Origin: Halorientalis sp. LT38
GTDB taxonomy: Archaea > Halobacteriota > Halobacteria > Halobacteriales > Haloarculaceae
DNA: 64,000 nt
Assembly: GCF_037031225.1 (NCBI RefSeq)
Contig: NZ_JAYEZN010000001.1
Coordinates: 806,001 to 870,000 of the forward strand
Direction of reading: 5' to 3'
Below are positions 46,214 through 52,609 of this stretch, in pieces. The translations under genes and the position numbers were made by a program. Numbering within the stretch: the first letter of the stretch is position 1; each line of letters starts with the position of its first letter. The notes beneath the pieces were generated by a model, which was not told where the DNA came from, ran no database searches, and saw only the letters and a program-made list of their open reading frames with translations.

Positions 46214-46870
46214 TCAGTCCGGGCCGACCTGGGAGATGATGCGCGATTCGATCTTCCGGAGGTGTTCGCCGACGGTGCTGGTCGAGCAGTCCAGGTCCGC
46301 GGCGATGTCCTCGTTGGTCGCCTGGCGGGGAATCTCGTAGTACCCCTTCTCGAGGGCGACCTCGAGCACTTCGAGCTGGCGCTCTGTCAGCATGGTCGTG
46401 ACGTCGACGCGGTCGACGCCCCCCGAGTCGTCCTCTTCGAGTTCGATATCGAGCTGCCCGGGCCGCATCTGGGCGGCCTCCCTGATCTTCTTGAACTCGC
46501 CCGCGACCTGCATGTGGAGCCCGCCCTCGTCGTCGATATCGACGGGCGGGTCGACGATCAGGTCGTACTCGTCCATCAACTGGATCATCGCCGACAGGAC
46601 CGTGTTCGCCGCGAAGCGGACGTGCGCGCGGAGGCCGTCCCCCTCGACCTCGAACACGTCGTAGGAGAGCGCACTGTCTTCCGCGGCGAGGATGGCCTCG
46701 AGGTCCTCGGCGTCGCCGTCGATGTGGTAGAGCAGGACGCTCGTCCCGTCCGGCATCAGGTCGAAATGTAGCGCGGCCTCGCGGGACAACTCAGGGTGCT
46801 CGACGATGGCCTCGTCGAGCGGGTTGTACGTGCCGTCCTCCGCACGGAGGACGATATTGAACTCCCGCAT
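46214..46870 (-). CDS. Bacterio-opsin-activator-type HTH-10 regulator
   Basis: 218 residues. The C-terminal HTH-10 domain (about 165-218) has LTERQLEVLEVALEKGYYEIPR and 'CSTSTVGEHLRKIESRI'. The N-terminal ~150 residues are a ligand- or signal-sensing domain of unknown type. The gene is divergent from the R2-like oxidase operon, with a 14-base palindrome between them, so it is the best candidate local regulator. Start MREFNIVLRAEDG; an in-frame codon nine residues upstream is less likely. Confidence 0.85.
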   Translation of the reverse strand: MREFNIVLRAEDGTYNPLDEAIVEHPELSREAALHFDLMPDGTSVLLYHIDGDAEDLEAILAAEDSALSYDVFEVEGDGLRAHVRFAANTVLSAMIQLMDEYDLIVDPPVDIDDEGGLHMQVAGEFKKIREAAQMRPGQLDIELEEDDSGGVDRVDVTTMLTERQLEVLEVALEKGYYEIPRQATNEDIAADLDCSTSTVGEHLRKIESRIISQVGPD

Positions 46871-46927
46871 GGGCGTCAGTTCTAACCAGGAGGACAAAAG
46901 GGGTTCGCCCGTGATGTGAGGTGAGTG

Positions 46928-47137: not shown

Positions 47138-48169
47138 ATGGACGCCAGTACCGATCAAATCAAGGCGGGGCGGATCGACACCGACAATACGTACTACGAG
47201 TTGTATCAGAAGTCCGTCGAGTTGGGGACCTGGGACGCGGAGAAGCTGATGCACAAGGTCGGCTTCGAGGGGGACCGTGAAGTCTGGAACTCGCTCGAGG
47301 ACGACGAGAAAGAGCAGTGGGCGCGGCTCATTTCGTACTTCATCGACGGCGAACACGCGGTGGCACAGGACGCGCGTCGCATCATGAAGACGGTGTCCTC
47401 GCCGTGGTTCGACCGGTCCATCGAGAAGGAGATGTTCGCCTCCGCGCTGGCGCTGGAGGAGGCAAAGCACACGCAGTTTTTCGACCTGTACCTGACGAAC
47501 GTGATGGTCGACAAGTTCCCGCAGTACGAACTCGATACGCGCCGCGGGGGCATCCAGATCCCGCGGACCGAGGCCTGCGGGGCCGGGAAGATGTTCGAGC
47601 GCCAGGGGACGCTCCAGGCACAGGCCGCCGACGGCGGCGACCCGACCGACATCGCGCGTGCGGCGACGAACTACCACATCGGCGTCGAGGGCATCCTCGC
47701 CCGCGGTGGGTACTTCGCCAAGAACCGGATGATGCAGGAAGCGCCGCTGACGCTGCTCAACAAGGGCTTCCAGTTCATCAGCACCGACGAAGGCCGACAC
47801 ATTACCTTCGGCCTCGAAGTGCTGAACGAACTCATCGAGAAGGAGCGAGAGGGGATCCCGGAGTACCAGGGCGTCGAGAACGCCATCTGGGAGCAGGCCA
47901 TCGAGGACATCGGCTACATCACCGACACGGCGTACTTCATCACCGAGTCGGTGGGTGACCCGCTCAACGTGGACTTCTCCGAACTGGTCAACCGCGGTGC
48001 GCGCCTGGCCGGCGACATGATGTTCGACACGCTCGACCTGGACGCCGGGAGCGCGAACGAGTTCATGAGCGCCTCCGCCGACGCGATGGAGGAGGCACAG
48101 GGCAGCGACTACGAAGCGGTCATCGAGAAATACGACCACATCTACTCGCAGAAGATGGCGGGTGACTGA
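47138..48169 (+). CDS. R2-like ligand-binding oxidase (R2lox-type diiron protein)
   Basis: 343 residues, ferritin-like R2 fold. Metal ligands E72, E108-x2-H111, E184 and E218-x2-H221 are all present. V75 (three after E72) and Y179 (five before E184) occupy the positions that form the Val-Tyr cross-link in R2lox proteins. The radical-Tyr position of ribonucleotide reductase R2 (H111+4) is Phe115. It is therefore better called an R2lox-like oxidase than an NrdB. Known R2lox proteins bind a long-chain fatty acid at a Mn/Fe site. First gene of an operon with a small protein and a ferredoxin. Alternative ATG at 47111. Confidence 0.8.
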   Translation: MDASTDQIKAGRIDTDNTYYELYQKSVELGTWDAEKLMHKVGFEGDREVWNSLEDDEKEQWARLISYFIDGEHAVAQDARRIMKTVSSPWFDRSIEKEMFASALALEEAKHTQFFDLYLTNVMVDKFPQYELDTRRGGIQIPRTEACGAGKMFERQGTLQAQAADGGDPTDIARAATNYHIGVEGILARGGYFAKNRMMQEAPLTLLNKGFQFISTDEGRHITFGLEVLNELIEKEREGIPEYQGVENAIWEQAIEDIGYITDTAYFITESVGDPLNVDFSELVNRGARLAGDMMFDTLDLDAGSANEFMSASADAMEEAQGSDYEAVIEKYDHIYSQKMAGD

Positions 48170-48171
48170 TC

Positions 48172-48432
48172 ATGACGGCACTCACAGACATCGAAGGGGC
48201 GGACTTCACGGCGTCGGACGAGGAGATCGAAGAGGCAGTCGAGGAAGCGGCCGAGGAACTCGGCATGACGCCCGAGAAACTCCAGGAAGAGGTGGCCTAC
48301 ATCCTCGACTCCGGCACCGGCCGGGCCAACAACGAGGGCGTCGCCGGCGCGGCGGCGAGCGACAACGTCGACACCAACAACGACCCCCGACTCGAGGCAT
48401 TGGAGATGTACAAGCTGCGCCAGGAACTATGA
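48172..48432 (+). CDS. Small acidic protein of the R2-like operon
   Basis: 86 residues. An N-terminal Glu/Ala-rich helix (EEIEEAVEEAAEELGMTPEK) is followed by a Gly/Asn-rich middle (GTGRANNEGVAG) and a short C-terminal helix (LEALEMYKLRQEL). No family recognised. It starts two bases after the oxidase stop and overlaps the ferredoxin start by four bases (ATGA), so all three products are probably made together. It could be an accessory or docking subunit. Confidence 0.75.
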   Translation: MTALTDIEGADFTASDEEIEEAVEEAAEELGMTPEKLQEEVAYILDSGTGRANNEGVAGAAASDNVDTNNDPRLEALEMYKLRQEL

Positions 48433-48791
48433 GCGGACGCGCAGACACGCCGGACGAGGCTGCGCCCGAGCCCGCCACCGACGGTGGCGAGTACGAGGTC
48501 GACCTCGTCCACGAGGGCGAGGAGATCACGCTCAGCGTCGACGAGGACCAGTACATCCTCGACGCCGCCGAGGAGGCGGGCCTGGAACTGCCCTACTCCT
48601 GCCGGATGGGCCAGTGCACCTCTTGCGTCGGAACGGTTCAGGAGGGCGAGATCGACCAGAGCGAGGGCGCAGCCCTCGACCCCTCCCAGGAGGAAGACGG
48701 GTTCGCACTGCTCTGTGTCGCCTACCCCGAATCGGACTGCAGCGTCGAGACCGACACGCAGAGCGACCTGTTCGGCGGCGACATCCTCTAG
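48429..48791 (+). CDS. Plant-type [2Fe-2S] ferredoxin
   Basis: 120 residues. Cluster ligands C58-x4-C63-x2-C66-x29-C96 (YSCRMGQCTSC, LLCVAYP). An acidic N-terminal extension of ~20 residues (ADTPDEAAPEPATDGG) and a C-terminus ending DLFGGDIL flank the fold. Encoded immediately after the R2-like oxidase, so it is the likely electron donor for O2 activation. Distinct from the longer main haloarchaeal ferredoxins with an inserted domain. Confidence 0.92.
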   Translation: MSGRADTPDEAAPEPATDGGEYEVDLVHEGEEITLSVDEDQYILDAAEEAGLELPYSCRMGQCTSCVGTVQEGEIDQSEGAALDPSQEEDGFALLCVAYPESDCSVETDTQSDLFGGDIL

Positions 48792-48986: not shown

Positions 48987-49718
48987 ATGAGTACACAGGG
49001 ACAGCAGTTCGAACTCGACGATTACTTCCCGACCACGGCATGGCTCGACAGGTACCAACAGGCGCTCGACGACAGCGAGGAGCTGGAGGAGACCGGCGCC
49101 GGTTGGGGCGTCGACTGGAACGGGGACTTCGTCTTCGAGATGGAGAACCTGCCGATCGAGGAGCGGACGGTGAACGACCTGCCCGAGGAGGTGTGGGAGG
49201 CCCTCGAACAGGGGATCACCCAGCTCCCGGAGGACACGCTCGAGACCGTCCTCGAGGACGCTCCGGAGGACGTCCGCGAGGGGATCGAGTCACGCGAGGG
49301 GCCGCTGCCCGAGCGCGCAGCCGCTGAGTTGCTCGAGACGAGCGTCTCGGAGGCGCCCGAGAAGGTCTGGCCGGGACTCCGCCGGGTCATGCCGGACATC
49401 ATGGACGACCTGCTCGACGAACTCGAGGAGAACGTCACCGACGACGGCACCGTCTACGCCTGGATCGGCCTCGAAGACGGGGGCTGTTACGACACGGCGA
49501 CCATGCGGAGCCTGGACGAACGCGACTACGGGTTCGTCCTGACCGGTGACTTCGACGAGTGGGTCGACCTGGTCAGCGGCGACCTGGACGTCGTCGAAGC
49601 GATCATGTCCGGCAAACTGGAACTGGACGGGGACATGCAGAAGATCCTCCAGTACTCCGACGCCGCCCTGTCGATGACCGACGTGGCCAGCGGCCTGGAC
49701 AAGCGGTTCCTGTTCTGA
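48987..49718 (+). CDS. SCP2-type lipid-binding protein with acidic insertion
   Basis: 243 residues. SCP2 sterol-carrier-like halves: an N-terminal strand region (about 14-56, WGVDWNGDFVFEMENLP) and a C-terminal region (about 153-243) with the SCP2 signature WVDLVSGDLDVVEAIMSGK and LELDGDMQKILQY. Between them sit ~95 acidic helical residues. Expected to bind hydrophobic ligands such as fatty acyl chains. A GGGAGTGAT Shine-Dalgarno-like sequence precedes the ATG, so the transcript is leadered. The gene follows the ferredoxin by 195 bases. Confidence 0.78.
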   Translation: MSTQGQQFELDDYFPTTAWLDRYQQALDDSEELEETGAGWGVDWNGDFVFEMENLPIEERTVNDLPEEVWEALEQGITQLPEDTLETVLEDAPEDVREGIESREGPLPERAAAELLETSVSEAPEKVWPGLRRVMPDIMDDLLDELEENVTDDGTVYAWIGLEDGGCYDTATMRSLDERDYGFVLTGDFDEWVDLVSGDLDVVEAIMSGKLELDGDMQKILQYSDAALSMTDVASGLDKRFLF

Positions 49719-49928: not shown

Positions 49929-50492
49929 ATGACAGACGAACTCATCACACGCGTCGAAGCAACGCTCGACAAGGACGAAGCACAGCTCAAGGAGGACCTG
50001 CCGGACCTGCTCGACGACATCGAGGGTCAGGAAGAGGAGCTCATCAGCGAGAACCCGGACCTGTTCGCACAGGTCATCGGCCGCATGGGCGACATCGACA
50101 TCGCGGCCTTCTACGAGGACGAGCCCGAAGCGGGAGACCAGTTCCAGGACCTGCTCTGGACGGGCGTCAACATGCTCGTCGAGGAGAACCCCGAGATCAA
50201 AGACCAGATCGCCGCGGACATCACGGCGAACTTCGAGGCCGACGACTGCCCGATGGAGGGCCACCTCGACGTGGACGCCGGCGAGGAGACGATCACGGGC
50301 GGCTCCGGGACCGTCTCGGACGCCGACCTGACGCTCTCGGGTCCCGCCGACACGCTGACGGGCCTCATCACCGGCGGCATCGACCCGGTGCAGGGCTTCA
50401 TGCAGCAGCAGTACGAGCTCGACGGCTCGGTCCAGAAGGGCACCCAGCTCGCCTCCGTCATGGGCGAGATCACGGACAACGTCCCGAGCTGA
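49929..50492 (+). CDS. SCP2-type lipid-binding protein
   Basis: 187 residues. The N-terminal ~75 residues are acidic and helical (LKEDLPDLLDDIEGQEEELI), then a region of beta strands (GHLDVDAGEETITGGSGTV) and the SCP2-like C-terminus (LTLSGPADTLTGLITGGIDP, then QGFMQQQYELDGS). Probably binds an acyl or sterol-like ligand. A second SCP2 relative encoded next to a first suggests a division of labour, such as two ligands or a carrier and a regulator. No membrane span or signal peptide. Confidence 0.72.
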   Translation: MTDELITRVEATLDKDEAQLKEDLPDLLDDIEGQEEELISENPDLFAQVIGRMGDIDIAAFYEDEPEAGDQFQDLLWTGVNMLVEENPEIKDQIAADITANFEADDCPMEGHLDVDAGEETITGGSGTVSDADLTLSGPADTLTGLITGGIDPVQGFMQQQYELDGSVQKGTQLASVMGEITDNVPS

Positions 50493-50574: not shown

Positions 50575-51240
50575 TTACGCGCTTCTCTTTCGCACCCGTT
50601 CGACGACCAGTCGCATCGCGACCAGCGCCGCCATCCCGACCAGCGGCGCGATCCGCGGCGGTCCCTCCCGCGTCGTCTCGTCGCGCGTCGTGCCGTCGGC
50701 CTCCGTCCCCCTTTGCTCGTCCGCATCGGTGGTCCGGTCGGCCTCGAACGTTCTGATCGTCGTCCCCGCGGCGGTCCCCGACTCCGCCTCGACGTCACCG
50801 GTGTCGTCCGTCGAAGCGGCCGCCTCGGATTCGCTCGCGGAGGCGGCGGATTCGCCGGCTTCGGGATCGGTCTCGCCGGCTTCGGGATCGGTCTCGCCGG
50901 CTTCGGCGTCGGCCTCGCCGACGATCTCGACGGTGCCACCGGCCACGTCCTCGTCCGACCCGGGCAACCCGGCGTCGGCCCTGGGAGTGTCCGTCGAGGA
51001 CTCGTCACCCCGACCCTGCAGATATCGCAGCCCGACCCCGACAGCGGCGAGGCCGAGGCCCGCGACGGTCAGGAGCGTCGGCAGTCGGCTCCCGCTGTCG
51101 CTATCACCGCCGTCGCTCGCCTGGACTGTCACGTCGTCGATCGTCGGTTCGGTCGGGTCGTCGTCCGCGTCGGAATCCCCGCCCGGGAGGCGGCTGGCGA
51201 GCGGGTCGGGGAGGCGGCCCCGGAGGTCGGGTCGCTGCAT
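50575..51240 (-). CDS. Two-span membrane protein with acidic repeat linker
   Basis: 221 residues. One span near residues 52-72 (LPTLLTVAGLGLAAVGVGLR) and one near the C-terminus (APLVGMAALVAMRLVVERVR). Between them is a Glu/Ala/Ser/Thr-rich linker with three copies of a 7-residue repeat (EAGETDP). A membrane tether or signalling role is possible; no family recognised. It is the only minus-strand gene inside the lipid cluster. A GTAATGC box lies about 27 bases before its ATG. Confidence 0.6.
   Translation of the reverse strand: MQRPDLRGRLPDPLASRLPGGDSDADDDPTEPTIDDVTVQASDGGDSDSGSRLPTLLTVAGLGLAAVGVGLRYLQGRGDESSTDTPRADAGLPGSDEDVAGGTVEIVGEADAEAGETDPEAGETDPEAGESAASASESEAAASTDDTGDVEAESGTAAGTTIRTFEADRTTDADEQRGTEADGTTRDETTREGPPRIAPLVGMAALVAMRLVVERVRKRSA
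50851..50913. repeat. Three 21-base tandem repeats
   Basis: Units start at 50851, 50872 and 50893 and share CTCGCCGGCTTCGGGATCGG with few changes. In frame in the two-span membrane protein, giving the EAGETDP repeat. Likely to vary in copy number. Confidence 0.75.
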
Positions 51241-51289
51241 GCCGGAGCATACGACGGCCAGTGCATTACGCTTGGGGCCGGGTGGCGAG

Positions 51290-51316
51290 TATAAAGCCCC
51301 CTCGTATGTGACGGGG
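51290..51316 (+). promoter_or_regulatory. Promoter of the acyl-CoA dehydrogenase gene with shared element
   Basis: TATAAAGCC, one base, CCTC, two bases, ATG, one base, GA, one base, GGGG. Nearly the same as at 49827. The ATG at 51404 is 114 bases from the box start, so the mRNA has a leader of about 85 bases. Confidence 0.55.
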
Positions 51317-51403
51317 CAGGCATTACGCGGTTGCACGACAACGAGTGTCTAACCCGGCAGTTCGACGCGTCGCGCGTCGAGACGCCACGGGGGAGACGAT
51401 ACC

Positions 51404-52609
51404 ATGGAATTCGACAAGACACACGAGATGTTCCGGGACTCGCTCCGGGACTACCTCGAGACCGAGATCGCACCGGACGTCCAGAAACTGGACAAACAGG
51501 AGATGACCAAGGAGGAGGCCGTCGGCTACCTGCGGGACCTCCGGAAACTGGGGATCGGCTTCGACAAGGAGACCGCCCAGGACTACTTCGGCGACCTCTC
51601 GTACTACGTCATCGGTTCCGAGGAGATCGCCCGCGTCTGGCCGAGCCTGAACGTCATGCTCAACATGTCGTTCCCGGCGATGTTCGCCAACTGGGCCAGC
51701 GAGGAGACCCGCGACGCGCTGGGCGACAAACTCGAGAAGGGCGAGGCCATCGGCGCGCTCGGCGTCACCGAACCCGGATCGGGCAGCCACTCCAGCAAGC
51801 CCAACACCGTCGCACGGAAAGACGGCGACGAGTACGTCATCAACGGCGAGAAGACCTGGGTCAGCAACGCCCAGATCTGTGACCTGACGATGATCGTCGC
51901 CTGGGACGAGGAGAACGACGCCCAGGACATGTTCATCGTCGACCAGGAGAACTCGCCGTTCGACACCCGCAAACTCGACAAACTCGGCTGGAAGGGGTCG
52001 CCGACGGGCCAGATGTTCTTCGACGACGTGCGCGTGCCCGAGGACAACAAGCTCTCGAACGCCATCCGCAACCTGATCCTCGAACACGGCGACCTCGCGG
52101 AGGCGCTGCCCTTCCCGAACGAGATGGTCGACCTGTTCCTCAGCCACAAGCCGCTGAACGCCATCTTCTCGTTCATGCGGACCGGCATGGCCGCGATGGC
52201 CGTGGGCATCCAGCAGGCCGCCTACGAGGACGCCCTGGAGTACACCACGGATCGCGAAACCTTCGGCAAGCCCATCGCCCAGCACCAGCTCGTCCAGAAC
52301 CGCCTCTACAAGATGAAGGCCAACGTCGAGACCTCGCGCCTCCTGACCCACGAGGCCGTCGAGAAGCTCTCGAACGCCGACGAAGAATCGAGAATGTACT
52401 CCTCGCTGGCGAAGGGCTACGCCTGCGACAAGTCCGTCGAGACCGCCCGCCACGGCGTCGAACTGTACGGCGGTAACGGCCTCTCGACCGACTACCCGCT
52501 CGAGCGCTACTACCGCGACGCCCAGACCATGACCATCCCCGACGGGACCGAGGAGATCATGAAGCTCATCGTCGGCTACGAGATGACCGACCTGTCGGCG
52601 TACGCCTGA
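51404..52609 (+). CDS. Acyl-CoA dehydrogenase
   Basis: 401 residues, FAD-dependent. N-terminal helical, central beta (GALGVTEPGSGSHSS, then TWVSNAQICDLTMIVAW) and C-terminal helical domains. 'TTDRETFGKPIAQHQLVQ' and 'GVELYGGNGLSTDYPLERYYRDAQ' are family hallmarks. The catalytic Glu of medium-chain enzymes (in YEGT) is Asp380 here (IPDGT), a substitution I recall in other haloarchaeal members. Acts on an acyl-CoA of unknown chain length, plausibly a ligand of the SCP2 proteins next door. Confidence 0.93.
   Translation: MEFDKTHEMFRDSLRDYLETEIAPDVQKLDKQEMTKEEAVGYLRDLRKLGIGFDKETAQDYFGDLSYYVIGSEEIARVWPSLNVMLNMSFPAMFANWASEETRDALGDKLEKGEAIGALGVTEPGSGSHSSKPNTVARKDGDEYVINGEKTWVSNAQICDLTMIVAWDEENDAQDMFIVDQENSPFDTRKLDKLGWKGSPTGQMFFDDVRVPEDNKLSNAIRNLILEHGDLAEALPFPNEMVDLFLSHKPLNAIFSFMRTGMAAMAVGIQQAAYEDALEYTTDRETFGKPIAQHQLVQNRLYKMKANVETSRLLTHEAVEKLSNADEESRMYSSLAKGYACDKSVETARHGVELYGGNGLSTDYPLERYYRDAQTMTIPDGTEEIMKLIVGYEMTDLSAYA

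Follow-up and report, generated by a model that had tools for sequence, protein, structure and literature searches.

The question raised by this locus is whether an R2-like gene of Halorientalis sp. LT38 encodes a subunit of ribonucleotide reductase (RNR) or an R2lox-type oxidase and, in the latter case, with which other proteins the oxidase might work. The gene lies in a stretch of 64,000 nucleotides (the window; positions 806,001 to 870,000 of contig NZ_JAYEZN010000001.1), to which the coordinates given here refer. Such genes are usually mislabelled as RNR genes, and haloarchaeal plasmid copies of R2lox are annotated as ribonucleotide-diphosphate reductase subunit beta. An earlier note on this DNA had read the residues of the product as those of an oxidase. 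We refer to the protein and its close relatives as R2h.

47138..48169, + strand: R2h, an R2lox-type dimetal oxidase of 343 amino acids, with ligands E72, E108, H111, E184, E218 and H221 and the predicted cross-link pair V75/Y179

All of the residues named in the earlier note (E72, V75, E108, H111, F115, Y179, E184, E218 and H221) lie at R2lox positions. HMMER alignments with the chains of solved R2lox structures bring the E-x-x-V and Y-x4-E segments of R2h into register with the ligands and the cross-linking residues, the GEEAV and TYNHIVEG-type segments aligning to the chains of M. tuberculosis (PDB 3ee4) and Geobacillus R2loxI (PDB 4hr0), such that V75 and Y179 match the cross-linking valine and tyrosine of both structures, where the note had placed them. 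The residues it had assigned as metal ligands (E72, E108/H111, E184 and E218/H221) are 100% conserved among 94 R2lox-type proteins and, together with V75 and Y179, make up eight positions that are invariant in 94/94. The nine genuine R2 subunits compared, which come from E. coli, plasmids and phages, instead carry Asp at 72, Gln, Ile or Ala at 75, Tyr at 115, Val, Ile, Ser, Met, Leu or a gap at 179, and Phe at 188. Because these nine proteins differ in those columns, the pattern is neither chance nor a generic R2 feature. Two of the differences, Asp in R2 versus E72 and Phe in R2 versus A188, go beyond those described before. The phenylalanine reported four residues after H111 is present (F115), and the radical tyrosine of class Ia/Ib R2 is accordingly absent, but F115 is not diagnostic inside the R2h clade, where the position is Phe in 10/23 and Leu in 13/23 sequences. 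An in-frame extension of the reading frame to 46925 is probably non-coding, since the homologues share the methionine region at which the 343-residue protein begins.

The assignment to an oxidase rather than an RNR subunit is backed, besides these residues, by profile scores, PDB matches, Foldseek, phylogeny and the RNR content of the genome. Five R2lox models are the top NCBIfam matches to R2h, at 69-103 bits versus 21 bits for the RNR beta model. The best of these scores is 102.8 bits against a cut-off of 194, and all five models score under their cut-offs; ordinary haloarchaeal R2lox proteins, at 122-147 bits, fall short as well, so archaeal proteins lie outside what these cut-offs cover, and we set them aside as an uninformative criterion of R2lox membership. 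The best PDB sequence matches are R2lox proteins (54-63 bits), with class Ic R2 at about 24 bits. Structure prediction and phylogeny had both been proposed as checks of the original claim. An AlphaFold2 model derived from an alignment of the clade (pLDDT 88.7, pTM 0.89) was compared with the PDB, and the R2lox fold was nearest: Foldseek ranks 1-24 are all R2lox (7qbp, E 1.4e-7, TM 0.71/0.83), and C. trachomatis R2c appears from rank 25. Phylogenetically, the R2lox-type proteins stand apart from R2 with support of 100/100, in a tree without class Ic R2. The window protein is an oxidase-type relative of R2lox, and its placement in the oxidase class is well supported.

The RNR reading takes R2h as an R2 subunit, for example one of class Ic, which like R2h combines the R2 fold with the lack of a radical tyrosine at H+4. 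It draws on the Pfam profile Ribonuc_red_sm, which R2h matches barely above the cut-off (36.4 versus 33.6 bits), and on the presence of C. trachomatis R2c among the fold matches (TM 0.66-0.68). The Glu at the first ligand position, the V75/Y179 pair and A188 are nevertheless R2lox states, the R2 sequence scores are much lower than the R2lox scores, and R2h scores lower against class Ic R2 than against R2lox in both sequence and fold. Moreover, the host genome contains a single homologue of the RNR large subunit (one PF02867 match), which is assigned to NrdJ with 728 bits against the NrdJ_Z cut-off of 400; no class I large subunit, and hence no R1 partner, was found in that genome, its only PF02867 match being the class II NrdJ. 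Class II NrdJ reductases depend on adenosylcobalamin (B12) and need no R2. With no class I R1 and with both residues and scores contrary, we reject identity as an RNR subunit, which we consider extremely improbable.

Within the R2lox family, R2h stands as a separate haloarchaeal clade. Its members are 45-58% identical between branches and only about 25-30% identical to ordinary R2lox, and 23 sequences form one clade with an SH-aLRT of 99 (100/100 in a smaller, careful tree). The clade may be nested among haloarchaeal R2lox (a 99/98 branch) or be sister to all other R2lox (AU p 0.122); R2h and ordinary haloarchaeal R2lox, which carry the same active-site signature and occur in the same genomes, may share ancestry. 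Full-length relatives of at least 45% identity are present in 19/294 genomes of the class, in which ordinary R2lox is commoner. When about 85,000 species genomes were scanned with two clade-specific motifs, the full-length members that emerged were confined to haloarchaea and to a few MAGs with the label Euryarchaeota, although motifs this specific may miss distant bacterial kin. Among the matches listed for the host genome, four are R2-like: the window gene, a paralogue with 57% identity, one ordinary R2lox and one further place. Our literature search, which did not cover Kumar 2020 or Diamanti 2022, found neither the clade nor the genes around it described.

Some further R2-like genes were seen in these genomes. 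A third haloarchaeal R2lox-type group (FYDGEEDV... NYMGIVEA; L063, L065 and L066) lies close to R2h in the tree, with modest support (90/73). Ordinary R2lox is present as several paralogues per species in Halorientalis (for instance in H. persicus and in H. marina), and Halorientalis regularis (L072 / L101) holds a truncated remnant of R2h, the class-search match having an in-frame TGA.

The solved R2lox proteins of M. tuberculosis (3ee4), G. kaustophilus (GkR2loxI, 4hr0), S. erythraea (7qbp) and S. acidocaldarius (6qrz/7qbk) share with R2h the predicted fold, the six ligands, the Val/Tyr pair, A188 and the lack of a radical tyrosine. In contrast to them, R2h forms a separate long-stem clade, has a different C-terminal part and a dedicated partner gene, and varies at two second-sphere positions, Y192 (Y175 in GkR2loxI) and G71 (G68), which are fixed in 71/71 other R2lox proteins. 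In the 23 R2h sequences the former is Tyr in ten, Phe in eight, Ser in four and Ala in one, and the latter is Gly in 19/23 and Leu in four, including the paralogue in the host genome; the window R2h itself retains both G71 and Y192. In GkR2loxI, Y175 forms a hydrogen bond to the Mn1-bound water (PMC6060897), and the G68L variant, with its looser metal selectivity, accepts Mn more readily at site 2 (PMC7239806).

The genes around R2h further set the clade apart. In the window they are as follows:

46214..46897, - strand: divergent transcriptional regulator of 227 amino acids (HVO_0513_N and HTH_10), a possible cluster regulator
48172..48432, + strand: small partner protein of 86 amino acids, with three predicted helices (low confidence) and a conserved C-terminal DPRLEALExYKLRQ motif
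48429..48791, + strand: plant-type [2Fe-2S] ferredoxin of 120 amino acids (CX4CX2C...C; Fer2; TIGR02008 117 bits, cut-off 81)
48987..49718, + strand: SCP2-domain protein 1, a putative lipid carrier (PF02036 33.7 bits, cut-off 21.3; start codon read from the sequence)
49929..50492, + strand: SCP2-domain protein 2, of 187 amino acids (PF02036 33.9 bits)
51404..52609, + strand: acyl-CoA dehydrogenase of 401 amino acids (PF00441, PF02770 and PF02771 above cut-off)

Neighbourhoods were compared in 22 clade loci and in 26 intact named R2h loci versus 50 ordinary R2lox loci, the two R2h sets overlapping. The small-protein gene, which begins 2 bases past the R2h stop, lies immediately 3' of R2h in 22/22 and 26/26 loci and beside ordinary R2lox in 0/50. 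A profile search of the class recovered 23 copies in exactly the 19/294 genomes that carry R2h, each adjoining an R2h gene, and none in the 275 genomes without R2h. The small protein is therefore the obligate partner gene of R2h, linked to it one to one. It matches no Pfam family above cut-off, and its AlphaFold model is weak (pLDDT 68, pTM 0.58).

The ferredoxin, whose ATG overlaps the stop of the small-protein gene (ATGA), adjoins R2h in 19/22 and 24/26 loci compared with 6/50 ordinary R2lox loci. SCP2 protein 1 is found near R2h in 17/22 and 23/26 loci (ordinary R2lox, 2/50), SCP2 protein 2 in 13/22, and the acyl-CoA dehydrogenase, which in the 22 clade loci usually follows SCP2 protein 2 directly, in 13/22 and 13/26 (ordinary R2lox, 2/50). 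A ferredoxin or SCP2 gene is thus rare at ordinary haloarchaeal R2lox loci, and the small partner is absent from all 50. Like the residue pattern and the clade, the gene linkage is strong; Fisher tests of R2h against ordinary loci are extreme, but inflated by the relatedness of the genomes. In Natrialbaceae, a Zn-alcohol dehydrogenase (ADH) and an aldehyde dehydrogenase (ALDH) adjoin the R2h cluster. Second-copy R2h loci in Halorientalis are reduced, with nothing retained but the partner and, in some cases, the ferredoxin; at the host paralogue (G000:C1:3131024) the partner is present and no ferredoxin was found within the 7 kb searched.

Regulators related to that of the window lie near some R2h loci and many ordinary R2lox loci. 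An HVO_0513_N/HTH_10-type regulator is near almost half of the ordinary haloarchaeal loci (e.g., L102, L118, L125, L129 and L137), in most cases no more than about 1 kb upstream, as is also seen for the window R2h. The window further has a 253-amino-acid open reading frame (50575-51336, - strand) in the gap from SCP2 protein 2 to the acyl-CoA dehydrogenase, with matches in three loci only. The Natrialbaceae clusters (L044 5257-5874; L046 3765-4388) encode a conserved protein of about 207 amino acids, of no known family and with a AGGLAGGFQAALLIQ motif, in six loci.

Taken as a whole, these results make it reasonably probable, in our view, that R2h is a divergent R2lox serving as the O2-activating part of a ferredoxin-fed multicomponent oxygenase that acts on an aliphatic or lipid substrate. 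We infer the following scheme. A dimetal centre, Mn/Fe or Fe/Fe, would be held by the six ligands of R2h, and activation of O2 at this centre would join V75 and Y179 by an ether link, in the manner of other R2lox proteins. The adjacent [2Fe-2S] ferredoxin could feed electrons to R2h, and the 86-amino-acid partner could bind to R2h and serve as its effector, in docking or in assembly. A long-chain aliphatic or lipid substrate might be bound or handed over by the SCP2 proteins, and its oxidized product would be taken up by the alcohol and aldehyde dehydrogenases, the acyl-CoA dehydrogenase or both. That no reductase is linked to R2h poses no problem for the scheme, because haloarchaeal 2-oxoacid oxidoreductases reduce ferredoxin. 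Several observations speak against an oxygenase: the acyl-CoA dehydrogenase is absent from half of the R2h loci and the ADH and ALDH from most, the NCBIfam score is under the cut-off, Y192 and G71 are variable, and the second-copy loci are reduced. Soluble methane and phenylacetyl-CoA type diiron oxygenases, with a dimetal oxygenase, a [2Fe-2S] donor and possibly a small effector, offer a working comparison only, since the R2h system is not homologous to them; its small protein belongs to no recognized family, the cluster lacks a fused reductase, and an R2lox-type protein takes the place of the oxygenase. A bolder version, which we put forward tentatively, is that R2h, the obligate small protein and the ferredoxin make up a hitherto undescribed multicomponent monooxygenase of R2lox type. 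The small protein would then be indispensable to it as a subunit for regulation or coupling, and the loosened second sphere (Y192F/S/A, G71L) would adjust the choice of metal and the reactivity so that R2h could turn over a substrate brought by the SCP2 proteins.

Two other readings accept the R2lox identity and differ in what the protein does. R2h could process itself without catalytic turnover, forming its Val-Tyr cross-link once and then having a lipid-binding, redox-sensing or structural role, with the ferredoxin and the partner used for assembly or reduction of the metal centre, like YfaE for E. coli NrdB. The invariance of the cross-link pair fits such a protein, the physiological function of R2lox was called unidentified in 2019 (PMC6399176), and YfaE, a [2Fe-2S] maintenance ferredoxin, is encoded directly 3' of E. 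coli nrdB. The window ferredoxin is weakly similar to the YfaE model, but at 28 bits versus 117 bits for TIGR02008, and the linked genes (SCP2, acyl-CoA dehydrogenase, ADH and ALDH) suit metabolism better, such that we regard self-processing as an unlikely explanation, if one to be kept in mind. Alternatively, R2h could be an acyl-CoA- or lipid-specific desaturase, epoxidase or hydroxylase that modifies membrane lipids or carotenoids rather than serving hydrocarbon catabolism. The host genome has four SCP2-domain genes in all, and the two best-scoring lie in the R2h cluster; the acyl-CoA dehydrogenase adjoins SCP2 protein 2, and no FA_desaturase/AlkB-type protein was found in the genome at E 0.001. 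Since the ADH and ALDH of several clusters suggest oxidation of alcohol to acid, and no conserved lipid-synthesis genes are nearby, we judge lipid modification to be rather improbable.

The oxygenase reading has parallels elsewhere in the family. Independently of the haloarchaea, Rhodococcus plasmid R2lox genes (L153 and L154) are accompanied by a ferredoxin, an FAD reductase and an NDMA-dependent alcohol dehydrogenase, with an aldehyde dehydrogenase also at L153, and a Mycobacterium plasmid copy lies in a region of acyl-CoA dehydrogenase, ligase and ADH genes. GkR2loxI, whose gene comes from an ADH/ALDH/beta-oxidation cluster, was reported to consume alkanes, in crude lysate and with only partial loss of activity in a ligand double mutant (PMC10867098). 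The same paper cites a hexadecane-induced R2lox gene in Halorientalis hydrocarbonoclasticus, which may correspond either to R2h or to another R2lox gene of the genus.

In summary, the earlier note missed both the clade and the cluster, and it is the clade-specific partner gene and this cluster that lift R2h beyond routine re-annotation. The physiological role of R2lox has been open, from the unidentified function of 2019 (PMC6399176) to the alkane hydroxylase claim for one member in 2024 (PMC10867098). The natural variation of R2h at two second-sphere positions is ready material for questions of metal selectivity. The invariant partner, the linked ferredoxin and the genes for lipid and alcohol oxidation put names to the missing components, and thereby offer a concrete reconstitution and a testable lead to the function of R2lox.
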